From positions 1 to 61,850 of the forward strand of contig JAUNQJ010000002.1 of assembly GCA_030536265.1 (NCBI GenBank): a DNA stretch of 61,850 bases. Direction: 5' to 3'. The position numbers and the translations under genes are program-made. Position 1 is the first letter of the stretch; each line of letters starts with the position of its first letter. Positions 7,305-36,964 of this stretch are shown here, piece after piece. Under the pieces are notes generated by a model. That model worked only from the letters and a program-made list of their open reading frames with translations. It was not told the DNA's origin and did no database searches. Origin of the DNA: Erysipelotrichaceae bacterium. GTDB taxonomy: Bacteria > Bacillota_I > Bacilli_A > Erysipelotrichales > Erysipelotrichaceae.

Positions 7305-7979
7305 ATGAAAGGAATACTTGGTAAAAAGCTTGGTATGACTCAAGTCTTCACTGAAGACGGTGCTCTTATTCCTGTAACTGTTGTAGAAGTTGAACCTAAT
7401 ACAGTTCTTCAAGTTAAAACAAAAGAAACTGATGGTTATGAAGCTTTACAACTTGGTTATGAAGAAAAGAAAGAAGCAAGAGCAACTAAGCCAGAATTAG
7501 GCCATGCTAAAAAAGCAGGCGTTAGCCCTAAGAACTTTGTTAGAGAAATCAAAGCTGATGAACTAATGAATTCTGAAGTTGGCTCACAAATTAAAGTCGA
7601 TATCTTTTCCGCTGGTGACATCGTAGATGTTACTGGTATCTCAAAAGGTAAAGGCTACACTGGTGTAATTAAGAGATACAACCATCACTTAATTAATGAA
7701 ACACACGGTGCTGGTCCAGTACATAGAAGTGTTGGATCTCTAGCAACAACTGGTAGAAACAATGGACGTATTGAAAAATTAACTCCAATGCCAGGACACG
7801 ATGGAACATACAAGACAACAAATCAAAATCTTGAAGTTATCAAAGTTGATGCTGAAAAGAATTACATGTTAATCAAAGGTAATGTTCCAGGACCTAAGAG
7901 AGGTCTTGTAGTTATCAAAACTACAGTTAAGAAAGTAAAACATGTTGAACCAAAAGTTTTACTTGCAAAGGAGGCGTAA
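7305..7979 (+). CDS. rplC: Ribosomal protein L3
   Basis: This is an early-assembly 50S protein whose long loop reaches the peptidyl transferase centre; 224 aa against ~209 usual. The N-terminus MKGILGKKLGMTQVF and the central MPGHDGT stretch are diagnostic. The extra length is partly a C-terminal lysine-rich extension (KKVKHVEPKVLLAKEA). It follows rpsJ by 17 bases, with ribosome site AGAAAGGTG, and precedes rplD by 5 bases; the rplD ribosome site (GGAGG) lies inside its last codons. Confidence 0.98.
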   Translation: MKGILGKKLGMTQVFTEDGALIPVTVVEVEPNTVLQVKTKETDGYEALQLGYEEKKEARATKPELGHAKKAGVSPKNFVREIKADELMNSEVGSQIKVDIFSAGDIVDVTGISKGKGYTGVIKRYNHHLINETHGAGPVHRSVGSLATTGRNNGRIEKLTPMPGHDGTYKTTNQNLEVIKVDAEKNYMLIKGNVPGPKRGLVVIKTTVKKVKHVEPKVLLAKEA

Positions 7980-20886: not shown

Positions 20887-21243
20887 ATGCATAATCGTAA
20901 ATTAGGTCGTACTGCTGACCATCGTAAAGCATTACTTAGAAATCTAGCTACTGAAGTAATCTTGAGAGGAAAAATTGAGACTACTGAAATGAAAGCTAAA
21001 GAATTAAGAAGCGTTGTTGATGGCTTAATCACTATCGCTAAAAAGAACACTTTAGCTGCTAGACGCCAAGCTGCTGCATACTTAAGACCAGTTACTAACA
21101 AAGCTGGAAAAACAGCTGTTCAAGTATTATTTGATGAAGTTGCACCAAAATATGCAGACAGAAAAGGTGGCTACACTAGAGTTACTAAGACTGATATCAG
21201 ACGTGGTGACCAAGCACCAATGGCAATTATCGAATTAGTATAA
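20887..21243 (+). CDS. rplQ: Ribosomal protein L17 (last gene of the operon; element inserted at its 3' end)
   Basis: This is a 50S exit-region protein, 118 aa, normal. Motifs are [20 protein letters not shown] and the terminal [11 protein letters not shown]. Its last codons and stop (21224-21248) form a 25-bp sequence found again at 36940-36964 with two differences, which marks it as the integration site of the element that follows. The reading frame is fully intact, so integration keeps the protein functional. Confidence 0.98.
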
Positions 21244-21248
21244 TTGAA
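21224..21248 (+). other. Left att site (core inside rplQ)
   Basis: AATTATC (21225-21231), GAATTAG (21232-21238) and TATAATT (21239-21245) form two inverted 7-mers around a 7-base centre, the layout of a tyrosine-recombinase core with a 7-bp crossover. Compared with the right copy it differs at 21231 and 21246 only. The stop codon of rplQ lies in the right half-site. Confidence 0.75.
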
Positions 21249-21287: not shown

Positions 21288-21309
21288 TTTGACTAAAATT
21301 TGACTAAAA
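21288..21309 (+). repeat. Left arm-type repeat pair
   Basis: TTTGACTAAAA occurs twice without a gap (21288-21298 and 21299-21309), 43 bases inside the left core. A matching pair lies at 36825-36846. Such 11-bp direct repeats are the usual targets of the N-terminal arm-binding domain of integrases. Confidence 0.65.
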
Positions 21310-21341
21310 GAAATCATATTTTCATAACATTTAGGGTTATT

Positions 21342-22748
21342 TTAACCCTTTTTTTGATTGTTGCTGTTATGAATTTTAGAGTATTCTTTTTTATAAGCTT
21401 CTAATAACTGCTTAGATATATCTACAATTTCATCATTCTCGTTCATATCTAAGTTCTCAGTTATAATACAACTTTGTTGGCCTTCAATGCAAATGCTTAG
21501 AGGGTCATTTTGTTCCCTTGTGCTTATCTGTAGAGACATATGATCATGTACTTTAAGTTTGATATCATTGATGTTTTTGCTAATATTTGCTTCTTCGTTA
21601 ATTCTTGAATCATTACCAAACAGTTTATTAAGAGGATGATTTTGAATCTTTTTGTAGATGTTTAGTAGGAACTCTTCTGAACCATAGAATTTTCTATCGA
21701 GAGGTGCATTTGACATATCGTGCCCCATGACATATTGTATTTCAGTTTGGTCAAGTGATAAGTTATGGTACATTGTCGCTATATTTCTTCTCAGAATATA
21801 GGCTGTAGGAGTTTTCTCATCAATATCATATTCTTCATCTTTTTGTTCGAGTAAAGCGGAAATGGTTGAGTAATCTTCTTTTGAATAGCCTAGAATATCT
21901 TTAAGCATTGCTTTACCAGCTGCAGAGATTTCTTTGGCTGTACAATTTGTTATAAAATCTTTTTTGCAAGCAATTGGCAAATCATCAACATTATCTCGAT
22001 TTGTCATTTTCTTTACATATTCTTCTCTTTTTCTAAGGAATGTTAAAAGAAAATTTATTAATGGATTAGCTCTTGGACTATTACATGTTTTTGATCCAGA
22101 TTTTAGAACTCTTTTGCCATGAACTGTGCTGTTATATCCAGTTTCCATAAAATAGGCATCATAATCACCAATTTGTTTAATCGAACCAAACGTCATACCG
22201 ACAACTTCATTTTCTCTTGAAGGCAAAGCAAACATAATAGCTAGACCTATTTTCTCACCTTCTTCGCAAGGGTTGGTATACAAGTAATCGTATGCTTTGA
22301 TATTTTGATCAATTGATAGTGATTTAGGAATTTTGCTTAAAGCATCATTTAAATTATTTGTGTTATTTGATGCATAGAATTGAAGAGATGTACCCCATAG
22401 AGGATTTATACTTTCTTTTTCATTTCTTTTGTAGTAGTGATTTATTGCGTCAGTAAATAGATGACTATAATTCTTTCTCATGCTATCATCACTAGAACCT
22501 GTTTTATTTTGAATAACGTTCAAATATTTTTGGATTAATTCTTCATCAAATTTATCCATCGTTAACGCAATATTGATGATTGGAAAAATATCATCGTTAT
22601 ATCTACCGATATATGTATCTTTTGTCTCATCATTACAATTTGATTTAAAATCATCAAAATTTTGAATGACGTAGCCAATAAAATTTTGTTCTCCCTTAGG
22701 AGTTAGTTTCGGATATTTAATAGAAAATAGTCTTACGTTTTTATTCAT
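21342..22748 (-). CDS. Tyrosine recombinase (468 aa), third gene of the recombinase operon
   Basis: The catalytic centre of the tyrosine recombinase family is recognisable: R178 in LPSREN, a beta-strand lysine K216 or K220 (VLKSGSK followed by SPRANPL), R320/R321 in YILRRNIAT where the usual His is Tyr, H343 in MGHD, and Y355 in DRKFY. The ~150-residue N-terminal part would be the core-binding domain, and an unusual ~110-residue C-terminal tail follows the nucleophile. The start overlaps the 960-aa gene by 8 bases with GAGGAG upstream, so the two are translated together. The product probably cuts and rejoins DNA as a partner of the large protein. The exact family is not known to me. Confidence 0.75.
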   Translation of the reverse strand: MNKNVRLFSIKYPKLTPKGEQNFIGYVIQNFDDFKSNCNDETKDTYIGRYNDDIFPIINIALTMDKFDEELIQKYLNVIQNKTGSSDDSMRKNYSHLFTDAINHYYKRNEKESINPLWGTSLQFYASNNTNNLNDALSKIPKSLSIDQNIKAYDYLYTNPCEEGEKIGLAIMFALPSRENEVVGMTFGSIKQIGDYDAYFMETGYNSTVHGKRVLKSGSKTCNSPRANPLINFLLTFLRKREEYVKKMTNRDNVDDLPIACKKDFITNCTAKEISAAGKAMLKDILGYSKEDYSTISALLEQKDEEYDIDEKTPTAYILRRNIATMYHNLSLDQTEIQYVMGHDMSNAPLDRKFYGSEEFLLNIYKKIQNHPLNKLFGNDSRINEEANISKNINDIKLKVHDHMSLQISTREQNDPLSICIEGQQSCIITENLDMNENDEIVDISKQLLEAYKKEYSKIHNSNNQKKG

Positions 22749-25623
22749 TTTCGTTCTCCTCGTTATTTGTACGTATCATATCGAAACCATAATCGTTTGA
22801 TATGTTAATAGTTGCTTGTACATTGGCACAAACTTCAATATTCAAAATAGTTCTTGAAGAAATATTGTGTGATAAGTAATTAATAGTTTCATTATTGTGA
22901 GTTTGCTTATATGACAAATATTTCTTTTCATCAAAAATAAGCGATGAAAGCCTTTCTTGTTTAATAAGCATTTGATACATGCTTGGTTCGCTATCATAAT
23001 CGCAATAGTTGTTGGAAAAAACATCTGTTGCTATATTACCGCATGAATGTTCAAGCTCATCTTCGGTATATTTGCATTCCATGATGCTGTAATAACGGTA
23101 ATTATTCCTTAGTAGATCACTATGTGAATTACTCAAATTAACTTCCTCTTTACCATCTTTTGTATGTAAATATGTAATATCATCCTTAATGTTTAATTTT
23201 TTAAGTTCTTTTTTACACATTTTAGAAAGCTTATATGGTGATAAGATAGCATATTCTTTATTAGCTAGAATTAAGTCACCTTCAAATAATGGCGTTTCTT
23301 GTACTCTTAAGGCAGGAATATCTGTGTGACTTCTGACAATGATGTTTTTTAATGCTAGCAATAAGTCAGACAGAAATATTGGTAATACAATATTTCGATA
23401 TTTGTAACTGGTTGTTAACTGTTTGAAATGCCCACTGTCATCAACGAATCTTCTTATTTTCAGATAGTATATCTCTTTACCTTTGTATGTAAAGTGTTTG
23501 AATTTAAAAATGTCCATAATTCTTAGAGCACATATTTCTCTATATTCTAATGGAGTAAATATCTTAAGAAGAATTGCTACCATTATTGATAAGTTATGCT
23601 TGTAAGATGATTCTACATTCCTGACAAGAGTTTTAAATTGCTTAAGGTTTATTGATGCTTTATTTCTTGCATTTTTAACATCAATAATTCCTTGTCTATC
23701 CTTGTTGATGAATCTTAATTCACCTTTAATAGGATTGTTTTTTGCATGCCCTTTTGCAATAGCATAATCAAATAATTTTGATATAAGTCTTTTTGCAATT
23801 ATTTTGTTTTTATTATCTTCACTTTCTCTATAGTAATTATCAAGATAATCATTAATCAATTTTGAATTAAGATTTCTTGGAAGAATCCAACCAAGTTCGC
23901 CATCAAGTAGTTCTTTAATAATTGCACTTTCTTCTTTTGATAGACTGTTTTCAATATCTTCATAAAATAGAAATAAAGATTTGAAAGATATTTCTTCGCT
24001 ACTTAATACATTTTTGAATTCATTTGATACATCACTACGAATAGATAAGCCATCCATATTTGATCTTTTTGAAATGAAGAAGTATTTATCATTTATGAAA
24101 CTATCTAATTGAGAAAGTAAGATATTGGTAATTTGTTTTCTACTGCAATCCATTTTGTTTCCTTTATCTTTATTAATTGTTCCATTTCTATTTTTAATAG
24201 GTGTTTTAATATAAACATTAATCACAGGACAATTACTATTTTTCTGAGGTGATGCAGTGTAGCGAATACGTATTTCATTTGAATAATCAATGAATGACGA
24301 AATCTTTCTTTCTTGATTGGTAAGTAGCAAATGATTATCATATTCATGGTTATAATATGCCCTTAAGTTGCTATTCTTATATACTTCGCTTTGCATTGTA
24401 GCTTGATAAGGGATTAATTTAAGCAATTGATATTCACCAGAACGATTTAGAGAATATGAATTAATATTGATAGAACTTACTTTTTTTCTCGAAAAAATAA
24501 GCAATATCTTTCTTTCGGGTTTTGTGCAATTGTTTATTCCAGAAGGGAATAGTGTGGCAGAACAAACCGAATATTTATTATCAACAAGATATCTTTTAAT
24601 AGTTAATTTATCTGAATCAATTCTATTATCGGGGCCAAATATCAATACATTAGTAGTTTCGTCATGATAACTTTCAATCATTTCGATTATTGATATCAAA
24701 TTAGAATCGTTTTCATGAGAATTAGCAAAAAACAACATCGTTCCTACTAATTCAGAAGACATCATTGCATTAAACTCAAAATTTTCCATTGTAGTGAATT
24801 TAACATTTTTTTGTTTATATACTTGACTATATATAATAACCATATCCTCGTTATTTACAACAATGATATACTCGTTACTATTGATTAATGAATCATTTAG
24901 TAGTTTTTTCACAAAGAATGGAGAAGGGAATGCAATTATATGTCGCTTATTAACACTATTTAAAATGAATGAAGAATAGGCATAATAAACATTTTTATTT
25001 TCCACCTCGCAATCATTTGAATCTGGATTTGTAACTATTAGACTTGCAGCATCAAGGCATACTTTTTGCTTAAGTGTTCGTAAACATAACTTCACTCTTT
25101 TTCTTTGTTCCTTACTAATGTCTTTATCAAGATAATCAATTAGTTCATCTTCAGTTATGCCATTAGTAGATGATGAAAATGATAGAAAATGTACTATTTC
25201 ATTATCTGAAAAATTTAGTATTTTAAGAATGTTTACAAGTTCATATGCTTTTTCTACACAATCGATTTCTTTGCCCTTTAATGTAGTTGAGTTTATGTAA
25301 CTGTAGAATTTAATAAATTCATTAGAAGACAAATGCTTGTCCTTGTATATTTCACAAAATTTATCATATAACTCATTTTTGTTGTTTGCTGAATGACTTC
25401 TATATTTAATGAAATACTCGCTTGCTCTATGAAGAGCAGAAATTAGGTTATATTTCTGCTCTTCTGATTCCGAAGTAGATAGTAAGTACGTTTTTAAGCC
25501 ATCTATATCATTCACAAGTTCAGGAGCTTTGGTTCTAATAAACCCATATACTGTTGTGTGGCTTGTTGCTTTGTTAGCTACAATTTTCTTTAGCTCATTC
25601 AATTTGTCAATTATTAATTCCAT
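22741..25623 (-). CDS. Large tyrosine-recombinase-like protein with a methyltransferase-like central domain (960 aa)
   Basis: Three parts are visible. Residues 1-~215 are helical with no recognised motif. Residues ~225-380 resemble the Rossmann core of N6 DNA methyltransferases: a strand-loop FPSPFFVKKLL, an acidic strand end YIIVVNNEDM, VKFTTMENFEF, then VLIFGPDNRIDSDKLTIKRYL and a late LPSG-like turn (LFPSGINN), but the SAM loop and NPPY motif are lost (ANSHEND instead). Residues ~560-890 resemble a tyrosine recombinase: YREICALRIMDI with R695, SHSDLLRNNY with R839, H859 in EHSCGN, and tyrosines near 873-876. Key positions are degenerate, so it may be a structural or DNA-binding partner. 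It starts 2 bases after the upstream zinc-finger gene. Confidence 0.6.
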   Translation of the reverse strand: MELIIDKLNELKKIVANKATSHTTVYGFIRTKAPELVNDIDGLKTYLLSTSESEEQKYNLISALHRASEYFIKYRSHSANNKNELYDKFCEIYKDKHLSSNEFIKFYSYINSTTLKGKEIDCVEKAYELVNILKILNFSDNEIVHFLSFSSSTNGITEDELIDYLDKDISKEQRKRVKLCLRTLKQKVCLDAASLIVTNPDSNDCEVENKNVYYAYSSFILNSVNKRHIIAFPSPFFVKKLLNDSLINSNEYIIVVNNEDMVIIYSQVYKQKNVKFTTMENFEFNAMMSSELVGTMLFFANSHENDSNLISIIEMIESYHDETTNVLIFGPDNRIDSDKLTIKRYLVDNKYSVCSATLFPSGINNCTKPERKILLIFSRKKVSSININSYSLNRSGEYQLLKLIPYQATMQSEVYKNSNLRAYYNHEYDNHLLLTNQERKISSFIDYSNEIRIRYTASPQKNSNCPVINVYIKTPIKNRNGTINKDKGNKMDCSRKQITNILLSQLDSFINDKYFFISKRSNMDGLSIRSDVSNEFKNVLSSEEISFKSLFLFYEDIENSLSKEESAIIKELLDGELGWILPRNLNSKLINDYLDNYYRESEDNKNKIIAKRLISKLFDYAIAKGHAKNNPIKGELRFINKDRQGIIDVKNARNKASINLKQFKTLVRNVESSYKHNLSIMVAILLKIFTPLEYREICALRIMDIFKFKHFTYKGKEIYYLKIRRFVDDSGHFKQLTTSYKYRNIVLPIFLSDLLLALKNIIVRSHTDIPALRVQETPLFEGDLILANKEYAILSPYKLSKMCKKELKKLNIKDDITYLHTKDGKEEVNLSNSHSDLLRNNYRYYSIMECKYTEDELEHSCGNIATDVFSNNYCDYDSEPSMYQMLIKQERLSSLIFDEKKYLSYKQTHNNETINYLSHNISSRTILNIEVCANVQATINISNDYGFDMIRTNNEENENE

Positions 25624-25625
25624 GG

Positions 25626-26525
25626 CTAATCTTCCTCATAATTAACAAAACCAACAGATCCTTTATTGGTGACGATTTTATAACATGTTCTTTGATTGTT
25701 ACCAAGAATCCTTTTTAATTCTCCAAAGATAATAATATTCTTTTTTTTACTTCTTGGTATTTTTGTGTTATTACCAGTAACTTTTGCTTTGAATGATTCA
25801 TTTATTTTATCGTTATTAAGTTTTGTTGCGATATATACTTCTTTATCACCGCTAATTAAACTTGTTAGCCTAAACCATGTATAAGTATCATCAATACTTT
25901 TTATAGAAGTTCTAGGCATGCATCTTTCAGTAATGAAAAGCATAGGTCTATTAGCCAAACCCTCGTTTGTCATGATTGCAAATTTTTCAGCGTCAAGCAC
26001 GATATCATTTATTGATATTCCAAGATCTGTAATAGTACAACCAAGTCCTTGTTGATACAATTTATATATGCCCAAAGCAGTGTTAAAATTATCTGGTTTT
26101 TCAACTCTTTTTTTTGGTCGTCCATTGATTTCATCAATATCTAGATTGATATCAGGTGTTGGACCACCATCATCACCTTTTGGTCGCTCTTTTGGGTCTT
26201 TGTCAACATCAACAAGTAAATGAGCAATATTTGCAATTACATCACCGCTTTTCACCGTCTCTGTTCGTCTTTTCCCAATTGGGCATCCTTTCTTGTGACA
26301 ATTTGAATAGAAGCAGTTCTTCTTATTCTTGTTAATGCGAAGGTGTGCTTTTTCGCCACAAATAGGACAATAATAATCTTTATCCCTATCTTTTTCAGAT
26401 AAATCCTCTGCTTTAATAAGCGGAACGCTTTTATCTTTGCTTGGTCTTGCCATACTAAATGGCAAATGTTTCATTGGCTTATTAGCTAATAAACCAATTT
26501 CGTTTTCATATAATGTTTTATTCAT
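25626..26525 (-). CDS. Zinc-finger protein, first gene of the recombinase operon
   Basis: A 299-aa protein I cannot assign to a family. A cysteine cluster is clear: C53, C56, C71, C76, C81 (YYCPICGEKAHLR, then CFYSNCHKKGCPIG), like the zinc ribbons at the start of primases and recombination proteins. A charged, Pro/Asp-rich linker (about 95-140) follows. The C-terminal half has short strands, a basic RSKKKNIIIFGELKR segment and no enzymatic motif. AGGAG precedes the ATG. It is probably a DNA-recognition accessory to the two recombinases, as its stop is 2 bases from the 960-aa gene; this role is inferred from position and fingers alone. Confidence 0.6.
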   Translation of the reverse strand: MNKTLYENEIGLLANKPMKHLPFSMARPSKDKSVPLIKAEDLSEKDRDKDYYCPICGEKAHLRINKNKKNCFYSNCHKKGCPIGKRRTETVKSGDVIANIAHLLVDVDKDPKERPKGDDGGPTPDINLDIDEINGRPKKRVEKPDNFNTALGIYKLYQQGLGCTITDLGISINDIVLDAEKFAIMTNEGLANRPMLFITERCMPRTSIKSIDDTYTWFRLTSLISGDKEVYIATKLNNDKINESFKAKVTGNNTKIPRSKKKNIIIFGELKRILGNNQRTCYKIVTNKGSVGFVNYEED

Positions 26526-27065: not shown

Positions 27066-27092
27066 ATAAAAAAGCATAATTCATTTATGCTT
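27066..27092 (-). terminator. Terminator of the ribbon-helix-helix gene
   Basis: On the minus strand an 8-bp stem AAGCATAA/TTATGCTT with a 5-base loop runs into TTTTTTA. It overlaps the stop codon of the gene. Confidence 0.85.
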
Positions 27093-27278
27093 GTTTTTGA
27101 TTCTTTCGATCTCTTTATCAGTCAATCTATTTAACATTGAATTAACAGATTCACCATTTGCTACAGCACATTCATTAATTAATTCTTTTTTTCCTTTAGG
27201 CACACGAAAACGGATAGATTCCATATTGTTATCTTCCCATTTCTTACTAGCTCTTTTCTGTGCTTCTGATGCTTTCAT
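27081..27278 (-). CDS. Small ribbon-helix-helix DNA-binding protein
   Basis: A 65-aa protein of the Arc/CopG type: a basic N-terminus (ASEAQKRASKKWEDNN), a beta strand IRFRVPKGKKE at ~21-31, then helix ECAVANGES and helix VNSMLNRLTDKEIE. The ribosome site AAGGG is 7 bases before the ATG. Its own promoter overlaps the palindrome at 27298-27313, and the divergent int leader promoter overlaps a second copy at 27423-27438; it is therefore likely a repressor of itself and of xis-int. The stop codon is TGA, one of only two in the window. Confidence 0.8.
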   Translation of the reverse strand: MKASEAQKRASKKWEDNNMESIRFRVPKGKKELINECAVANGESVNSMLNRLTDKEIERIKNKHK

Positions 27279-27671: not shown

Positions 27672-27884
27672 ATGTTAGATCAAAAACTATTTTTAACGGC
27701 ATCTGATGTATCTCTTTATATGTCAGTGTCAAAGCCCATGGCTTATAAGATTATTAAAAAGCTCAATGATGAACTTGATGCAAAAGGTTATTTAACAATA
27801 GCCGGTAAAGTTAATCGTAATTACTTTGAACAAAAAATTTATTGTAGTAATACTGCGATGGAGGTATCACATGCCAGCTTATAA
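27672..27884 (+). CDS. xis: Excisionase-like helix-turn-helix protein
   Basis: A 70-aa protein with the layout seen in front of integrases of Gram-positive elements: a winged-helix core LTASDVSLYMSVSKPMAYKI (about 9-28), then KKLNDELDAKGYLTIAGKVNRNYFEQK, where the last part is the usual wing. AAAGGAG lies 10 bases before the ATG. Its last 14 bases overlap the int start, and the int ribosome site (GGAGG) lies inside it, so the two are coupled. It probably bends the att arms to favour excision. Confidence 0.75.
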   Translation: MLDQKLFLTASDVSLYMSVSKPMAYKIIKKLNDELDAKGYLTIAGKVNRNYFEQKIYCSNTAMEVSHASL

Positions 27885-28950
27885 AGACAAGAATGGTAAG
27901 TGGATTGTTAAGTATTCCTATAAGGGACTTGATGGGAAATTCAAAGGTGTTACCAAAAGAGGATTTGAAACAAAAAGGGATGCTTTGAATTGGGAGACTG
28001 ATGCAAAGAAAAAAATTCATGGAATGTTGGATATTTCATTAGAGAGCTTTGCTAGTCAGTACTTAAAATTTATAAGCAACAGAATTAAATTTAGCACATA
28101 TGTTACTAAAGAAGCAATTATTAAAGCTCACATTATTCCATATCTTGGTAGATTCAAAGTTAATGAGATAACTGCAAGGGAAATTGTTGCTTGGCAAGAT
28201 GAAATGCTTAAATGCATAAACAAGAAAACAAATAAAAAATTTTCAAAAGCATACTTAAGGTTATTGCAAAACACGCTGAGTTCAATATTTGCTTATGCGA
28301 CAAGGTACTATAATTTACCAATCAATCCTGTTCATGTGTCTGGAAGCATTGGCGGTGGAAAAGACCGAGAAATGATGTTTTGGACTCAAGAGCAATACAA
28401 AAAGTTTTCAGAAGTGATGATGGATAAACCAATATTCTACTATGCATTCAATTGTCTATATTACCTAGGTATTAGAGAAGGGGAACTATTAGCACTTGAA
28501 GAAAGTGATATTGATTTTGAGAAAAAAGAACTTTCCATTACAAAAACTTACTTAAGAATTAATGGTAAAGATTATATTAATACTCCAAAAACAAAAAAGA
28601 GTATTAGAAAAGTTTCAATTCCAGATTTCTTATGTGAAGAATTAAAAGAGTATTTAAATCTTGAGTATACAAAAAACGAAAATAATAATCGCATATTTCT
28701 GATAGGTAAAACCGCTTTGACAAAAGCATTAATCAAAGGGGCAGATAAAGCAGGTTTGCCTCGAATAAGAGTTCACGACCTAAGACATTCACATGTTTCA
28801 TTGCTGATTGAACTTGGATATTCAGCTGTAGCAATCGCTGATAGAGTTGGACACGAAAGCATTGATATTACATATAGATATGCTCACTTGTTTCCAAACA
28901 AACAAAAGAGTATTGCCAATGATTTAAACAAAATTGCGGAGGATAAGTAA
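27871..28950 (+). CDS. int: Tyrosine-type integrase
   Basis: A 359-aa site-specific integrase. The N-terminal ~45 residues (MPAYKDKNGKWIVKYSYKG and KGFETKRDAL type) form an arm-binding domain of the AP2-like kind; a SAM-like core-binding domain follows to ~165. Catalytic residues: R202 (LGIREGELL), strand lysine in TPKTKKSIRKV, H302 and R305 (HDLRH), H328 (VGHES), and Y337 (YRYAHLF). The ATG at 27871 has TGGAGG 6-7 bases upstream; the frame is open to 27826 but lies over xis. It is the likely enzyme for the att sites at 21224 and 36940. Confidence 0.92.
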   Translation: MPAYKDKNGKWIVKYSYKGLDGKFKGVTKRGFETKRDALNWETDAKKKIHGMLDISLESFASQYLKFISNRIKFSTYVTKEAIIKAHIIPYLGRFKVNEITAREIVAWQDEMLKCINKKTNKKFSKAYLRLLQNTLSSIFAYATRYYNLPINPVHVSGSIGGGKDREMMFWTQEQYKKFSEVMMDKPIFYYAFNCLYYLGIREGELLALEESDIDFEKKELSITKTYLRINGKDYINTPKTKKSIRKVSIPDFLCEELKEYLNLEYTKNENNNRIFLIGKTALTKALIKGADKAGLPRIRVHDLRHSHVSLLIELGYSAVAIADRVGHESIDITYRYAHLFPNKQKSIANDLNKIAEDK

Positions 28951-28951
28951 A

Positions 28952-29293
28952 ATGTGTGAAAACAGAAAAAGAAAAATATTAGTTCGATTCAGAGTTGATG
29001 AGAAAGAAAAAGAATTACTTGACAAATATGTCTCTTTGTCTGGCCTTTCAAGGCAAGAATACTTACAATCCAACATGCTTCATCAACAAATTATTGTTAA
29101 AGGCAATCCGAGAGTATTTAAAGCTCTAAAAACTCAAATGGAAGAAATTCTTCTTGAGTTAAAAAGAATTGAAAATGCTTCTGAAGTAGACGAAGAGTTT
29201 CGAAGACTAATTAAATATGTAGAAGATATGGCTGTAATAATGGCTGAAGAAAACCAACAATTTAATTTAAAGAAGGAGAAAATATGTACTTAA
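28952..29293 (+). CDS. MobC-like ribbon-helix-helix protein
   Basis: A 113-aa protein starting one base after the int stop, with GCGGAGG inside the int tail as ribosome site. The N-terminal strand VRFRVDEKEKELLDKYVSLS and the helix LSRQEYLQSNML match relaxosome accessory proteins of the MobC type; the rest is helical (MEEILLELKRIENASEV). Such proteins help a relaxase open oriT, but no relaxase gene is visible in the element, so it may act on another element's machinery or serve as a regulator. Confidence 0.65.
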   Translation: MCENRKRKILVRFRVDEKEKELLDKYVSLSGLSRQEYLQSNMLHQQIIVKGNPRVFKALKTQMEEILLELKRIENASEVDEEFRRLIKYVEDMAVIMAEENQQFNLKKEKICT

Positions 29294-29640
29294 TTCAAGA
29301 TGAACTTAACGATTGTTCTATTAATCGTAACACCGATTGTGAATTGTGACTTCACTACGATGGCAAAAGAGAAGATAGTTTCTTAGCTGTCTTCTATACA
29401 ACCACAAATAAAATGATGGAGTGTTATAGAGATGATGAAATGTTTAGTCCTATAACACTTCCTCAAACTTCATCTTTATATAGAATCTTACAAATCGCAT
29501 GGAATATCGCAGATTTGCAAGGTCTAGATAAAACTGCAACAGTGATTATTCACTTTAGAGAATTAATTGATATCGATGAAGAAATTAAAGATTTCATTAA
29601 TGATCAAAACAATGAAAAAGGAGTAAAAATTTATGACTAA
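29284..29640 (+). CDS. Small protein gene with an in-frame TGA (codon 22)
   Basis: AAGGAG five bases before the ATG at 29284 gives a clear start, and the frame runs 118 codons to TAA at 29638, but codon 22 (29347-29349) is TGA in the context C-E-L-TGA. After it the frame continues as LHYDGKREDSFLAVFYTT and SSLYRILQIAWNIADLQGLD, with no other stop. Without recoding only 21 aa would be made, or the 75-aa part from ATG 29413. A TGC-to-TGA nonsense mutation is the simplest reading; selenocysteine at a C-x-x-U site is an alternative. The 3' end overlaps the DUF2130 gene by 8 bases. Function unknown; this small gene lies between the MobC-like and DUF2130 genes. Confidence 0.55.
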
Positions 29641-31153
29641 AAACGAAATTAAGTGCCCAAATTGTGGCACAGCAATTCAAATCGATGAGTCTACATATGA
29701 TTCAATCGTCAGCCAAGTTAGAGATGCTGAATTTAATAAAGAAATCTCTAAAAGAGAAGAATTAATGGCTAAAGAAAAACAAGACGCCATTAAGCTTGCT
29801 CAAACTCAAACTGAGTCTTCTATGAAGGATAAATTAGCAGAAAAAGACGCTAAAATTAACGAATTAGATAAGAAGTATGAAGAGTTAAGAGCTAAAGCAA
29901 ATGTTGAGTTCACAAAAAAGAAAAGTGAACATCAAGATGCTTTAAACGAAAAAGATAAGCAAATTAGTGATTTGCAGAATCAACTAAGTAATAGCGAATC
30001 AGCTAAGGAGCTTGCTATCAATGAAGCTACGGAAAGCTATAAGCAACAAATCTTTAAACTTGAAAACGAGTTAAACACTAACAACGAAAAGTTCAAGGCT
30101 TATCTAGATAAGGTTAATGCTGAAAATCAATTAAAACTATCTGATAAAGAAAAAGAAGTAATTGATTTACAAGTGAAATTAAAAGAAAAAGACTCTGAGA
30201 AAGCACTTGTCATCAGCGAACTTGAAAATAAAAGTAAAGAACAAGTAGCTAATCTAAACGCTAAAATCAATTCACTAAATGAAGATTATAGAAACAAAGA
30301 AAACAGTATTAAATCTTCATATGAAGCACAGCTAAAAACCAAGCAAGATGAAGTTGATTTCTATAAAAACTTCAAAGCTAAACAATCTACTAAAGCAATT
30401 GGCGAAGATCTTGAACATTATTGTAGTAATCAATATGACAAGACACTTCGTTCAGTATTCACTAATGCTTTCTTTGAAAAAGATAACGATGTTTCAAAGG
30501 AAACTGGTTCAAAAGGAGACTTCATCTTCAGAGATTATGATGAAGAAAATACTGAATTCATTAGCATCATGATTGAATGTAAGAACGAAGCTGACGAAAC
30601 CGAACACAAGCATAAGAATCAAGATTTCTTTAAAGAATTGGATAAAGATAGAACAGAGAAGAACTGTGAATACGCTGTTCTAGTAACAATGCTTGAACAA
30701 GATAACGACTTGTATGATGATGGCATTCTTGATGTATCACATCAATATCCAAAGATGTATATAGTAAGACCTCAATTCTTAATTCCACTTATTACTCTAC
30801 TAAGAAACGCAGCCTATAAGTCATTAGATTATAAGAAACAACTTGTAATTGCGCAAAACCAAAATTTAGATATTGCTCACTTTGAAGAGAATATGAATAA
30901 CTTTAGAGATACGTTTGGTAGAAATTATAAGTTAGCTTCAGATAAGTTCAAGAAAGCAATTGAAGAAATCGATAAGTCAATTGATCATCTTCAAAAGATT
31001 AAAGATTCTCTTCTATCAAGTGAGAATAATCTAAGACTAGCAAACAATAAAGCTCAGGATTTATCTATCAAAAAGCTAACCCACAATGCACCAAGTGTTG
31101 CAGAAAAGTTTGAAGACATTGCAACCGAGGAGGTACCGCCTGATGATGAATAA
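29633..31153 (+). CDS. DUF2130 protein: zinc ribbon, coiled coil and nuclease-like domain
   Basis: 506 aa. An N-terminal CPNC pair (IKCPNCGTAIQIDESTY) begins the protein, residues ~35-245 form a long Lys/Glu-rich coiled coil, and the DUF2130 domain spans ~250-390. In it GEDLEHYC, KGDFIFRDYD and ISIMIECKNE line up with the E...D...ExK pattern of restriction-endonuclease-like folds. A second helical part with LDKSIDHLQKIKDSL ends the chain. AAGGAG lies upstream of the ATG inside the preceding gene. DUF2130 proteins are of unknown function; the nuclease-like signature suggests DNA binding or cleavage. Confidence 0.8.
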   Translation: MTKNEIKCPNCGTAIQIDESTYDSIVSQVRDAEFNKEISKREELMAKEKQDAIKLAQTQTESSMKDKLAEKDAKINELDKKYEELRAKANVEFTKKKSEHQDALNEKDKQISDLQNQLSNSESAKELAINEATESYKQQIFKLENELNTNNEKFKAYLDKVNAENQLKLSDKEKEVIDLQVKLKEKDSEKALVISELENKSKEQVANLNAKINSLNEDYRNKENSIKSSYEAQLKTKQDEVDFYKNFKAKQSTKAIGEDLEHYCSNQYDKTLRSVFTNAFFEKDNDVSKETGSKGDFIFRDYDEENTEFISIMIECKNEADETEHKHKNQDFFKELDKDRTEKNCEYAVLVTMLEQDNDLYDDGILDVSHQYPKMYIVRPQFLIPLITLLRNAAYKSLDYKKQLVIAQNQNLDIAHFEENMNNFRDTFGRNYKLASDKFKKAIEEIDKSIDHLQKIKDSLLSSENNLRLANNKAQDLSIKKLTHNAPSVAEKFEDIATEEVPPDDE

Positions 31154-31605: not shown

Positions 31606-31635
31606 TTGACATATATATATATATATATGTATAAT
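31606..31635 (+). promoter_or_regulatory. Promoter of the binding-protein transporter operon
   Basis: Perfect TTGACA (31606-31611), an 18-base spacer that is almost pure (TA)n, and perfect TATAAT (31630-31635). The start codon follows 37 bases later with AAAGGGG as ribosome site. Confidence 0.88.
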
Positions 31636-31672
31636 GAAATCGCTTACAAAGCAAAGAAAAGGGGATAATATT

Positions 31673-33019
31673 ATGAAGAAACTTCTAATGGTTATGCTAA
31701 CAGCATTATTAGCATTAACTGCTTTAGCTGGATGCTCTAACAATGATACACCAAATGATACACCAGTTGAAGAAAATTTATCTGAAGTTCAAAAGATTAT
31801 TGCTGAAGCAGAAGGCATGACTCTTGAAGAACTTGCAAAGAAAGCAATCGAAGAATCTAATGGTAAAACTTTCTATGGCGTTGGTAACTCATCACGTGGT
31901 AAGACAGCTCTTCCTTTATTCATTGATTACTTAAAGTCAATCGATTCTAGTTACTCTATGGATTTTGAATGGCAACAACCAAAGAACAATAAGATCTTCG
32001 AACAATTAACAGCTGATGGTCTTAAAGAAACTGGTACATTTGCTATGACATTAATCCAAGATGGTAACCAAATCGAATCTAAGATGGTTCAAACTGGTGT
32101 CTTAGATACATTCATTCCAAAAGAATGGGCAGAAGCAAATAACACTACTGCTGCTGATTACACTGGATATCTTCCATTACAAACTTTAAATAAGATATTC
32201 GAGTACAACTGCGTAAATCCAAACAAGACTTACACTAACTGTTGGGATTTCGTTGCTGAAGGTGAACATGGATTATTCATGGATATCAACTCAGAAATCG
32301 TTGGTAAGAACTTCTTATACATGTTAACAAAAGATGAATATGCAACTATGTTAAAAGAAGCTTATGACAAGCTTCCTGCTGACAAGCAAGCATATTTCAA
32401 AACTACTATTGACGCTGTAGCTGTTGATGCAACTGACTTAGGCTTAGGCGAAAATGGTAAATACGCTTTAGCATGGATTAAATTATGGGTTAACAGCTAT
32501 AATGCTGTAACTGATGATGGTCCTATCTGCAATACTTTAGTTACTAAATCTGCAGTAGACCAATTTGGTCTATTAGTTTACTCAAAAGTTCGTTCAGTTG
32601 AAGAAACAGACGAAGTATCAGTTAACAACATTAAAGTTGCTGCATATCAAGATGGTTATGAAGGTATGGGTGGATATGCTTACTGCCATTACTTATTCGT
32701 AACTGACAACTCACCACTTCCTTGGACAGCATGTGCATTCATCGCTTATATGACTGAAACAGTAGATGGATTCTCTGCTTGGGGTAAGGATATTGGTGGT
32801 TATTCTTCAAACCCAGTTGTTGCTGCAGGTACTGAAGAAAAATTCCATCACTCAACTGGTGAATCATCAACAGTTGCTTGTGAAACAACAATGGATAAAG
32901 GCTATGACTGGTGGACTACTACTGGTAAGCTAGTTGTTGAAGATCCTAAATATTGTGCTTCTGTAGCATTCACAGTTGGTTCTTGGATTGAAATGCTAGA
33001 CAAGTACACAGCTGAATAA
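31673..33019 (+). CDS. ABC transporter substrate-binding lipoprotein
   Basis: 448 aa. The N-terminus is a lipoprotein signal (MKKLLMVMLTALLALTALAGC) with the lipidated cysteine at position 21, followed by an Asn/Asp/Thr-rich linker. The rest is a two-lobed solute-binding fold with Trp-rich surface loops (WWTTTG, WAEANNTT). It is the first gene of a three-gene importer and would catch the substrate outside the membrane. The permease and ATPase partners resemble the iron(III)/polyamine/thiamine import group, but the ligand cannot be read from sequence. An upstream in-frame ATG at 31634 lies inside the promoter, so 31673 is the start. Confidence 0.85.
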   Translation: MKKLLMVMLTALLALTALAGCSNNDTPNDTPVEENLSEVQKIIAEAEGMTLEELAKKAIEESNGKTFYGVGNSSRGKTALPLFIDYLKSIDSSYSMDFEWQQPKNNKIFEQLTADGLKETGTFAMTLIQDGNQIESKMVQTGVLDTFIPKEWAEANNTTAADYTGYLPLQTLNKIFEYNCVNPNKTYTNCWDFVAEGEHGLFMDINSEIVGKNFLYMLTKDEYATMLKEAYDKLPADKQAYFKTTIDAVAVDATDLGLGENGKYALAWIKLWVNSYNAVTDDGPICNTLVTKSAVDQFGLLVYSKVRSVEETDEVSVNNIKVAAYQDGYEGMGGYAYCHYLFVTDNSPLPWTACAFIAYMTETVDGFSAWGKDIGGYSSNPVVAAGTEEKFHHSTGESSTVACETTMDKGYDWWTTTGKLVVEDPKYCASVAFTVGSWIEMLDKYTAE

Positions 33020-33058
33020 TCTAATTATTAAAATTTAATTATTTTAAAAAGCGATAGT

Positions 33059-33086
33059 GCCTTCGTAGTATTATCTACGAAGGCTC
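33059..33086 (+). promoter_or_regulatory. Hairpin between binding protein and permease
   Basis: A 10-bp perfect stem GCCTTCGTAG/CTACGAAGGC with a TATTAT loop, followed by TCTTTAAAA rather than a full T tract. Placed after a binding-protein gene, such hairpins usually act as leaky terminators or 3' protectors so that more binding protein is made than permease. Confidence 0.7.
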
Positions 33087-33110
33087 TTTAAAATTTTAAG
33101 AGGTATAAAT

Positions 33111-34919
33111 ATGTCAAAGAAGACAAAAATTAAATTAAATAGTATAAAAACATATCTAAGCAAACCTCAAAATGTAATTTTAATTCTTACAGGAATTTTA
33201 GTTACTTTTACAACATTATCTCCAATAATCGCAATAATTGAAGACACAATCAAAATTCATCCTGGAACAATTGATCAATATTTAACAGGAAAAGTAAGTG
33301 GTTATTCATTTATGAACTATATTGATTTGTTTACTAGTAAACTAGCTAAAACAAATCTATGGACACCACTATTAAATACGACAATTCTTGCTATTGGTTC
33401 TTGTAGTTTTGCAATTCTTTTTGGTGGTATTTTTGCATATCTAGTTACAAGAACTAATTTAGTTTTTAAAAAATATTTAAGTTCTATATTTATTTTTCCA
33501 TACATAATGCCTCAATGGACTTTGGCTGTTGTATGGCAAAATCTTTTTAATTCTAATGCGATAACTGGAACCGCAGATGGTTTACTTGCTTCACTATTTA
33601 ATATTCATATGCCTGCATGGTGGTGCGTTGGTTTATTCCCATGTATTATCGTATTAGGCATGCACTATGCACCATTTGCATATATTTTAATAGGTGGCAT
33701 TTTCAAAAATATGGATGCCAATTTAGAAGAAGCAGCAACTATTTTAGATACACCACGTTGGAAAATATTTGCTAGAGTTACTATTCCTATGGTTAAACCT
33801 GCAATACTTTCAACAGTATTATTAGTTACAGGAAGTACAATTGGTTCTTATCCAGTACCACATTATTTAAATTTAAGTACACTTGCTACAAAATATGTTT
33901 CAATGAATGATAAATATACAGGTGAAGCATCAATCATCGCAATTATTATGATGTTATTTGGTGTTGCCATAATGTATTTAAATCAAAGATCATTACATTC
34001 ACGTAAATCATACACAACTGTAACTGGTAAGTCAGGACAAATATCAAAAGTTAATTTAGGAAAAGTTGGCAAATATGTTATTGCAGCTGTATTTGTTGTA
34101 ATTACATTCTTCACATCAATTTTCCCAATTATATCTTTTGCGTTTGAAACATTCTTACCAAATCCTGGTGATTATTCATTCTTATATACAGGTGACACTA
34201 GAAACCTTACTACCAAGTGGTGGATAACAAGTGAAAACATTACCGAGAATGGTATGTATGGACAATTTGGTATTTTATACAATAAGACAATATGGACAGC
34301 ATTTAAAGGAACAATTACTGTTGCGATTGTATGTTGTTTAACCGCAGGTATTATCGGAACATTAATTGGTTATGCTGTAAGTAAAGATAGAAGAGGAAAA
34401 CTTGCAGGCTATGTTAACTCAATGGCATTCTTACCATACTTAATGCCATCAGTTGCAGTAGGTGCTGCATATTTCATCTTATTCTCTTCAGGCAAAATTA
34501 ATTTATTTAATACATATACCGCATTAATAATTGTTGGTACTGTTAAATATATTCCATTTGCATCTAGAAGCTCATTAAATTCTATGTTGCAATTATCAAA
34601 TGAAATTGAAGAGTCTGCGATTATTCAAGATGTACCTTGGATAAAAAGAATGACAAGAATTATTATTCCAATACAAAAAACATCAATTGTATCTGGATTC
34701 TTATTACCATTCATGACATGTTTAAGAGAATTATCATTATTCATGTTGATATGTGTGCAAGGATTTATCTTATCAACGACATTAGATTATTTTGATGAAA
34801 TGGGATTATATGCATTCTCAAGTGGTATCAACTTAATCTTAATCATAACAATTTTAATAAGTAATTTCTTAGTTAATAAGATAACAGGCGCTAGCCTAGA
34901 TGAAGGAATCGGAGGATAA
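33111..34919 (+). CDS. ABC transporter permease, two fused membrane domains
   Basis: 602 aa with about twelve predicted membrane helices. Two permease domains lie in one chain, each with a typical EAA loop for contact with the ATPase: EEAATILDTPRWKIFARVTIP (about 205-225) and EESAIIQDVPWIKRMTRIIIP (about 500-520). Fused permeases of this type occur in iron(III) and related importers (FbpB-like). AAGAGG lies before the ATG. The last codons overlap the region holding the ATPase ribosome site. Confidence 0.9.
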   Translation: MSKKTKIKLNSIKTYLSKPQNVILILTGILVTFTTLSPIIAIIEDTIKIHPGTIDQYLTGKVSGYSFMNYIDLFTSKLAKTNLWTPLLNTTILAIGSCSFAILFGGIFAYLVTRTNLVFKKYLSSIFIFPYIMPQWTLAVVWQNLFNSNAITGTADGLLASLFNIHMPAWWCVGLFPCIIVLGMHYAPFAYILIGGIFKNMDANLEEAATILDTPRWKIFARVTIPMVKPAILSTVLLVTGSTIGSYPVPHYLNLSTLATKYVSMNDKYTGEASIIAIIMMLFGVAIMYLNQRSLHSRKSYTTVTGKSGQISKVNLGKVGKYVIAAVFVVITFFTSIFPIISFAFETFLPNPGDYSFLYTGDTRNLTTKWWITSENITENGMYGQFGILYNKTIWTAFKGTITVAIVCCLTAGIIGTLIGYAVSKDRRGKLAGYVNSMAFLPYLMPSVAVGAAYFILFSSGKINLFNTYTALIIVGTVKYIPFASRSSLNSMLQLSNEIEESAIIQDVPWIKRMTRIIIPIQKTSIVSGFLLPFMTCLRELSLFMLICVQGFILSTTLDYFDEMGLYAFSSGINLILIITILISNFLVNKITGASLDEGIGG

Positions 34920-34923
34920 AAAA

Positions 34924-36567
34924 ATGCCAGTAATCAAATTAGAACACGTAACTAAAAGATGGGATAAATTTTATGCAGTAGATGATTTAAATTTAACAAT
35001 CGATGATAACGCATTTGTTACATTATTAGGACCTTCAGGCTGTGGTAAAACTACTACATTAAGAATGATTGCAGGTCTTGAAACTCCAACAAGTGGAAAG
35101 ATTACAATAGGCGATAGAGTAGTTTATGACTCAGAAGAAGGAATTAATATTCCAGCTAATAAACGTAAAGTTGGATTCTTATTCCAAAACTATGCATTAT
35201 GGCCAAATATGACAGTTTATGAAAATATTTCTTTTGGTTTAACAAATATTAAAGAAGAACTACCTGTGGTATATAGTGATGCTAAAGCAGCTACAGCTAT
35301 GATTAATGCATTAAATAAAGCAAGTGATATTGTAAAAACTATTAATGAATGTGTTGATAAAAAAGGAAAAATAGATTCTAATAAAGCAATGATCAAACTA
35401 ATTGATCGTTATGAAATATCTCAATATTCTGCTAAAAAAATATTGAGTTATAAATTAGAAAATAGTTCTGATATTCAAAGTGAAGCTAATAAACATATTA
35501 CAGAGCTTCAAAAAGTAATAGACAGTGCCAATGAAACTGCAAAATCTAAAGGATATTCAATAGACGATAATTTCCAAGCAACACAAAACGGAAGCGTTGT
35601 TAAAGAAGTTAGAAAACTATCTAAAGAAGAGATAGATTTATCTGTAAGAAGAGTTTCTCGAATTGTAAAAATCGGCATGTTTATGGATAGGTATCCAGCT
35701 GAATTATCAGGTGGTCAACAACAAAGAGTTGCTATTGCAAGAACATTAGCACCTGAGCCAACAGTATTATTTATGGATGAGCCACTTTCAAACTTAGATG
35801 CAAAACTAAGACTTGAAATGAGATCTGAACTTCAACGTTTACATTTAGAAACTGGTTCGACATTTGTATATGTAACACATGATCAAATGGAAGCCATGAC
35901 ATTAGCTACAAGAATTTGTTTAATAGATAATGGTTTATTACAACAATACGATGCTCCATTAGATGTTTATAATAGACCAAATAATTTATTTGTTGCAGAT
36001 TTCGTAGGTAATCCAGCAATTAATTTTATTGATGCTAAAGGTAGCCAATCTGGTAAAAATATTGAATTAAGTATCTTTGATGGAAAGAAAGTTGTATTTA
36101 AACCAAATGAAGAAATTAACATTGATGATTGGCATAAACAACTTGATGATGCTATTGCCAAAGAAAATGCATTGTATCATGAAAAACTAAATACTAAAGG
36201 TTTTGTAGAAAAAACAAATAAAGAAACTAATTTCAAATATCATATTGCTCAAATTGATGAAGAAGAAGATTATGATGATGAAATTCAATTATCTAATGAA
36301 GACTTCGTAATTGGAATTAGACCTGAATTTATTGAAGTTGGAAAAGATGAAAAATTAGCAGGTGAAGTATATTCTTCAATGCCTACTGGTATGGAAACAA
36401 CTGTAAGAATTGCCATTGGCAATTATCTATTAACTAGCGTTATGTTTGGTGGAGTTGTTTACAATCTAGGTGACGAGGTAAATGTTGGATTTAAAGGAAA
36501 TAACGCTATTTTATTTGATAGAAAATCCGGTAAATTCATTTGCCAAGGTAAGATTGAAATTAAATAA
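34924..36567 (+). CDS. ABC importer ATPase with a large insertion
   Basis: 547 aa, longer than the usual ~350. Walker A GPSGCGKTT at 36-44, Q-loop Q88, signature LSGGQQQR at 261-268, Walker B VLFMDEP at 281-287 and the switch histidine H319. The distance from Q-loop to signature is ~173 residues against ~52 in MalK-type ATPases: residues ~110-237 are a charged helical insertion. After ~345 come regulatory OB/TOBE-like domains with an acidic insert (DEEEDYDDE). GGAGG precedes the ATG at 34924; the longer frame from 34900 overlaps the permease. Confidence 0.9.
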   Translation: MPVIKLEHVTKRWDKFYAVDDLNLTIDDNAFVTLLGPSGCGKTTTLRMIAGLETPTSGKITIGDRVVYDSEEGINIPANKRKVGFLFQNYALWPNMTVYENISFGLTNIKEELPVVYSDAKAATAMINALNKASDIVKTINECVDKKGKIDSNKAMIKLIDRYEISQYSAKKILSYKLENSSDIQSEANKHITELQKVIDSANETAKSKGYSIDDNFQATQNGSVVKEVRKLSKEEIDLSVRRVSRIVKIGMFMDRYPAELSGGQQQRVAIARTLAPEPTVLFMDEPLSNLDAKLRLEMRSELQRLHLETGSTFVYVTHDQMEAMTLATRICLIDNGLLQQYDAPLDVYNRPNNLFVADFVGNPAINFIDAKGSQSGKNIELSIFDGKKVVFKPNEEINIDDWHKQLDDAIAKENALYHEKLNTKGFVEKTNKETNFKYHIAQIDEEEDYDDEIQLSNEDFVIGIRPEFIEVGKDEKLAGEVYSSMPTGMETTVRIAIGNYLLTSVMFGGVVYNLGDEVNVGFKGNNAILFDRKSGKFICQGKIEIK

Positions 36568-36939: not shown

Positions 36940-36964
36940 CAATTATAGAATTAGTATAATTCAA
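36940..36964 (+). other. Right att site
   Basis: AATTATA (36941-36947), GAATTAG (36948-36954), TATAATT (36955-36961): a perfect inverted pair around the same 7-base centre as the left core. Sequence similarity to the rplQ end stops at the edges of these 25 bases, as expected for recombination and not for gene duplication. Confidence 0.75.

Follow-up and report, generated by a model that had tools for sequence, protein, structure and literature searches.

The three coupled minus-strand genes at 21342-26525 of the window (the whole 61,850-nucleotide stretch that was analysed) form a conserved accessory module at one end of an integrative element in a gut bacterium. Two of them, the central (large) and small subunit genes, encode tyrosine-recombinase-fold proteins from which opposite parts of the active site are missing, and one polar inverted repeat of 51 bp lies beside them. 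The pair is read here, with a probability of roughly 40%, as a heteromeric recombinase-like complex that would act at this repeat, possibly cleaving it by a composite active site.

Coordinates, sizes, the 2-base gap and the 8-base overlap of the three reading frames given by the first-pass annotation were all reproduced (Table 1). Its proposal of an undescribed coupled recombinase-like module also stands: the module is conserved, and HMM searches matched no described family. Nothing above cut-off was obtained in Pfam or NCBIfam for any of the three window proteins. Below cut-off, NCBIfam gave a weak XerA-type match for the small subunit and a weak helicase match for the zinc-finger protein. 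PHROGs gave a weak integrase match over central residues 541-780 (E 5e-7) and one for the small subunit (E 1.5e-4). The genes are taken as real because near-full-length homologs of the pair occur elsewhere and because a pair 91% identical between two loci (L004 and L012) is under purifying selection (dN/dS 0.14 for central, 0.064 for small). The small and central genes share a short overlap, of a few bases, in the loci examined. Of the three genes, the zinc-finger gene varies most among the loci compared: none lies next to the pair in Faecalitalea, an HTH gene is found instead in Aristaeella, and in Lactimicrobium it is on the opposite strand. Its finger, described earlier as having five cysteines, is read as C53-x2-C56, H77 and usually C81, and the protein weakly matches Pfam CoiA_N / DUF7830.

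Table 1. Positions of the module, the candidate site and the surrounding element in the window.
Feature	Position	Strand	Remarks
attL core, rplQ 3' end	21224-21245	+	CAATTATCGAATTAGTATAATT; 22 bp, 21/22 identical to 36940-36961
Two tandem copies of TTTGACTAAAA, probable Int arm-binding repeats	21288-21309	+	direct reading
51-bp polar inverted repeat, candidate target site of the pair	21322-21372	+	TCATAACA...TGTTATGA
Small subunit gene	21342-22748	minus	468 aa, tyrosine-recombinase-like; R-I/K/R-II/H conserved, nucleophile not conserved
Central (large) subunit gene	22741-25623	minus	960 aa; helical N-terminus, HsdM-like fold ~140-430, recombinase-like domains ~544-897 with Y873
Zinc-finger protein gene	25626-26525	minus	299 aa, CoiA_N/DUF7830-like N-terminus
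Arc-like ribbon-helix-helix protein, divergent from xis	27081-27278	minus	65 aa; Pfam Arc E 6.5e-5
Excisionase, ICEBs1 Xis-like	27672-27884	+	NCBIfam NF047858 E 8.6e-16, below cut-off
Ordinary tyrosine integrase of the element	27826-28950	+	Pfam PF00589, PF14659, PF14657
MbpA/NikA-like mobilisation accessory protein	28934-29293	+	Pfam NikA-like E 1.5e-10
DUF2130 protein	29633-31153	+	Pfam PF09903 E 2.6e-81
Cargo, putative ABC transporter: 461-aa protein without family match, permease, ATPase	31634-36567	+	
attR core, then native-type rplQ terminator	36940-36961	+	terminator resembles that after rplQ in genus relatives

The AlphaFold model of the central subunit was of moderate confidence (pLDDT 64). 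Its residues ~545-897 matched recombinases (XerA, 4a8e, Z 17.2; Tn1549 Int, 6emz, Z 14.5), so that structure comparison bore out the tyrosine-recombinase fold proposed for the 960-residue protein. Residues ~140-430 matched HsdM-type methyltransferases (7vs4, Z 13.3; 3lkd, Z 13.2; range Z 12-13), with Foldseek E-values of 7e-6 to 1e-5 for this region (3lkd, 9e-6). Compared with the HsdM proteins of a relative, the central subunit gave no signal at the sequence level, and the methyltransferase assignment therefore rests on the fold. In an alignment read by eye, neither the SAM-binding glycine-rich loop nor NPPY was present; xxPSPFF-like and xGNH-like residues were found in their places. The fused central domain, which had been said to fit neither Tn554 nor recombinase-in-trio elements, is on this model a degenerate HsdM-like methyltransferase fold.

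The model of the small subunit was poor (pLDDT 52), and only its N-terminal core-binding domain found a match (Tn1549 Int, Z 8.8). For this reason its catalytic domain was assigned by profile alignment to the Int of the element, which includes the catalytic region (hhalign E 6e-8). The central subunit aligned to Int at E 8e-11, and the two subunits aligned to each other over the recombinase region at E 9.5e-13. Profile searches of the 960- and 468-residue proteins, as first suggested, thus relate both to Int and to each other. Both have the core-binding and catalytic domains of the superfamily, the catalytic part of the small subunit being placed by hhalign, and the two are paralogous tyrosine-recombinase-fold proteins.

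The complete R-K-H-R-(H/W)-Y set was found in neither chain. In the small subunit R178, E181, K216, K220, R320, R321, G342 and H343 are invariant in all eight members, which agrees with the earlier choice of R178, R320 and H343 as motif residues. R178 is R-I, K220 the beta-hairpin lysine by alignment to Int, and R320 R-II; Y317 replaces the first H. Y355, which had been taken for the catalytic tyrosine, lies 12 residues past H343, not ~9, and is F in six of the eight; the canonical tyrosine position (+9) is R or K. The reading of the 468-residue protein as a nearly complete recombinase is therefore not supported, its tyrosine being variable among the eight members. The central subunit, earlier called degenerate, has the reverse pattern. 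Only 14 columns across the 960 residues are invariant, and Y873 (+10 from the H-equivalent), the same in 7/7 members, is among them. R-I, K and H are lost (R-I E/E/E/E/E/D/S across the seven; K-equivalent T/S/A; H-equivalent N/R/I). This reciprocal loss persists down to 14% identity, overall identity being 14-33%. This is the pattern that a heteromer sharing one site would require, and Flp, in which the tyrosine is donated in trans, is a precedent for a shared active site (PMC4499138).

The trio lies inside a 15.7-kb integrative element inserted at the 3' end of rplQ. The left att reported beside the trio proved to be a core that recurs at the far end, where a native-type rplQ terminator follows, and the separate, ordinary int reported from the middle was found there. 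PEPCK immediately past rplQ in relatives was sought as empty-site proof and was not found within 1.5 kb; attR is supported by the terminator match in place of that comparison. The attL-type arrangement is also seen at guaA in other elements of the family, and sibling elements, both with and without the trio, have a similar repeat pair past the terminator of the host gene. Small proteins similar to the Arc-like one occupy the equivalent place in L005, L012 and L066. No relaxase was recognised among the scanned element proteins despite the MbpA/NikA-like protein; mobilisation of the window element would need a helper.

The first-pass annotation treated the genes as a set, and the pair does recur in other Bacillota elements. 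Homologs were found in G034 (L005), G013 (L066), Lactimicrobium massiliense (L010), an Erysipelotrichaceae MAG (L012), Faecalitalea (L004) and a Clostridia MAG (L008). A more distant pair is carried by a circular Aristaeella lactis element (NZ_CP069422, L016/L087), and fragments or decayed copies occur in G001, G032 and a second Faecalitalea contig. The small gene is present in 8 of the 273 genomes of the family, decayed copies counted. Apart from Aristaeella, copies with a readable flank lie directly past the end of a host gene, which is guaA in L005, L066, L008, L010 and L012, with a guaA-like core in L004, and rplQ in the window. Both element ends were identified in the window, in L066, where a second core stands at 141, and in L010, where 36 kb separate the core copies; an attR was sought for the G034 element and none was found. 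Trio orientation differs between loci: the genes run away from attL in L004, L010 and L012 and toward it in the window, L005, L066 and L008.

The central gene of L. massiliense is interrupted by an opposite-strand transposase gene, apparently of the ISL3 family (L010:11550-13043). In a Faecalitalea relic (L100:1862-3379) a zinc-finger gene faces a truncated small gene, with PTS genes adjoining. The A. lactis record (NZ_CP069422.1, L087), named a 'linear plasmid', has a terminal redundancy of 5.2 kb at 94.7% identity and is for that reason probably a circle of ~38.7 kb; it contains int, xis, DUF2130, kinases and the recombinase-like pair.

Sibling elements were located by search with the Int of the window. 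Nine lack the trio (L068, L069, L071, L072, L075, L076, L077, L079 and L080), and in all nine an XRE-type regulator stands past guaA and diverges from xis; xis, int and an MbpA-like gene come next. This guaA element family is widespread, and the XRE repressor slot of the nine siblings, between attL and xis, is the trio slot in others. Since these nine xis-int-MbpA elements have no trio, Int and Xis appear sufficient for the family; the trio is accessory and is not the integration enzyme of the element. Entry into guaA or rplQ 3' ends by the family's own Int and Xis is the best explanation of the insertions. One further integrase of 455 residues (L007:1231-2598) has an apparent XRE-like HTH segment inserted mid-protein.

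Each trio element carries one inverted repeat, always exactly 51 bp long, in the stretch from attL to the trio. The arms are TGACAACT in L005, TGACAACG in L066, TGACGTCA in L008 and TGGCGTTT in L010, and L004 and L012 have TGGCAACT in common. The repeat starts 71-106 nt past the host stop codon in all six measured loci. Its trio-side half is always followed inward by GC and its attL-side half by A/T-rich sequence, mostly AAT; this polarity is constant relative to attL and independent of trio gene direction. In L005 (13186-13415) a 27-bp sequence with probable Int arm repeats is present twice, flanking the site on both sides.

A shuffle test of the repeat span gave 6/6 loci versus a maximum of 5, reached in 6 of 300 shuffles, which is suggestive only. 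A leave-one-out matrix was the stronger test. The true site ranked first, with correct polarity, in five of six loci; the site of the window ranked only 48th of 123,600, which counts against the favoured reading. No 51-bp repeat with TGxC arms was found in the nine trio-less siblings. Short inverted repeats of that span, without restriction of the arms, occur in six of the nine trio-less slots and are common by chance. The signal is carried by arm sequence, distance and polarity. A blind matrix scan of G001 found the same site adjoining a decayed small gene, past the second att core of a tandem element. G001 also has a remnant element, the first of the tandem, in which the site stands past guaA without trio or int, which is also a point against the favoured reading. 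The tandem guaA elements of G001 (L017:7200-17400) have their second att core, with its own repeats, at 7425. The Aristaeella circle yielded no convincing site, which likewise counts against that reading. Genome scans gave one exact site in the genome of the window and one in G034 at the expected place; in G013 one extra match elsewhere is apparently due to chance. With a single site per genome there is no intramolecular partner, a further point against it.

In the favoured recombinase reading, the central and small subunits would bind as a heteromer to the two unlike halves of the repeat. The small subunit would supply the phosphate-activating pocket (R178, K220, R320, H343) and the central subunit the nucleophilic tyrosine (Y873). 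The resulting composite, Flp-like shared active site would cut and rejoin DNA at the repeat. One site per element makes an intermolecular or dimer-type substrate the natural guess, and the likeliest would be two element copies (a circular dimer, a tandem or an incoming copy), in a Xer/dif-like role. At 51 bp the repeat would be a long core site for a recombinase, which weighs against this reading.

Nearly as likely is that the pair is a pseudo-recombinase regulator, which would bind the repeat uncut, control access of Int/Xis to attL or expression of xis-int, and replace the divergent XRE repressor of the siblings. Such a role would suit two proteins of which neither has a full active site, and a methyltransferase-like domain in which alignment and fold likewise suggest no recognisable SAM or NPPY motifs. 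The polarity of the site is tied to attL and not to the genes, and a divergent XRE gene fills the slot in 9/9 trio-less siblings. However, the four pocket residues of the small subunit and the central tyrosine are invariant at 14-33% identity, which plain DNA binding would not demand, and trio elements retain small regulators of their own (Arc-like in the window, L005, L012 and L066, and XRE also in L066).

It was also considered whether the pair and its accessory protein are a nested mobile unit, a Tn554/SE/GInt-like transposon that inserts here in other elements. The overlapping multi-recombinase operon resembles one, the block stands in both orientations at the same place, and the near-identical pair DNA of L004 and L012 extends 127 nt past the small gene and then diverges. 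This explanation is nonetheless improbable. Direct or inverted terminal repeats common to the two trio sides were not found, one copy of the site is present per genome, neither protein has a full RHRY set, and where ends are known the trio is always within int-driven elements. On the absence of repeats shared across the trio sides and the single site per genome, an autonomous transposon with its own ends was rejected. Its setting does not support an autonomous multi-recombinase transposon either: the element around the trio is driven by int, and siblings with an int of the same kind have no trio.

Ordinary cargo with another role, such as a defence system that uses recombinase and methyltransferase folds for DNA binding, is unlikely, and like the nested transposon less likely than the recombinase or regulator readings. 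Elements of the family do carry defence genes (BREX-like in L010, by eye; type I RM in L017), and kinase, FHA and AAA genes surround the Aristaeella pair. Against this, the constant position at attL, together with the polar DNA site linked to it, points to a function connected with the element end. A known defence system was rejected, PADLOC giving no match of meaningful score. A phage origin was likewise rejected, with no relatives found in phage records or viral contigs.

It is a doubtful, more specific proposition that the pair is a natural recombinase with an obligatorily split active site, the pocket coming from one protein and the tyrosine from a partner fused to a dead methyltransferase, at a polar 51-bp site with unlike halves. 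In Cre- and Xer-type tyrosine recombinases each subunit has the complete residue set, and in Flp the tyrosine comes from a neighbour. If the proposition is true, this two-protein system would be an evolutionary end point of Flp-style tyrosine sharing and a direct demonstration of active-site assembly in trans. The recombinase would be inactive until two gene products meet, and the 51-bp candidate site is defined for testing. If the pair does not cut, it would still be a new end-bound, recombinase-derived complex in a common guaA element family.

Among known systems, SE, GInt, Tn554, RIT and Gamma-Mobile-Trio come closest. Gamma-Mobile-Trio (GmtX, GmtY, GmtZ) is, like the trio, a three-gene recombinase-bearing module, found in defence-gene-rich islands. 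Membership was rejected: the NCBIfam GmtY model (NF040693) did not match the trio proteins, and in the genome of the window it matched only two other loci, below cut-off. SE elements (IntA, Tfp, IntB, Srap), which are strand-biased circularizing integrative elements, likewise have a coupled recombinase-fold operon near the left end, with a large member, one member without catalytic residues (Tfp) and a small accessory protein. However, they have four genes (intA-tfp-intB-srap) and two complete RHRY recombinases, whereas the trio has three genes, two of them recombinase-like, and no complete recombinase. SE elements move themselves in gammaproteobacterial hosts (PMC10214605), while the trio element has a separate Int and Xis. 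Trio profiles did not match single SE-6945 proteins in hhalign, where the use of single sequences limits sensitivity.

In GInt islands (GinA, GinB, GinC, GinD) the operon is at one island end, and GinC lacks the first arginine, as does the central subunit. GinA and GinB have the full motif, and all four genes are required for recombination (PMC5385486). The trio in contrast has only two recombinase-like genes, neither of them complete, and a separate int drives its element. Two or three coupled recombinase-type genes are likewise found in the Tn554 family (TnpA, TnpB, TnpC; a large and an ordinary recombinase) and in RIT, and their recombinases carry the catalytic motif (PMC10214605). These are autonomous elements, for which no zinc finger or methyltransferase-like fusion is described and whose complete recombinases are their own mobility genes; the mobility of the trio element is assigned to the separate Int. 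By published descriptions at least two complete recombinases are present in each of SE, GInt, Tn554 and RIT, which move their own elements; the trio, with none, is thereby set apart. With the modification subunit of type I RM systems the central subunit shares the HsdM-like fold, but not the SAM-binding and NPPY motifs.

The proposed mode of action has a likeness in other systems. XerC, XerD and Flp each hold the complete residue set, and their core sites, of 28-34 bp, are shorter than 51 bp. In XerC/XerD-dif two different subunits act on unlike half-sites of one dyad site, as is proposed for the pair, and in Flp/FRT the active site is shared in trans (PMC4499138), as the pair would share its own.
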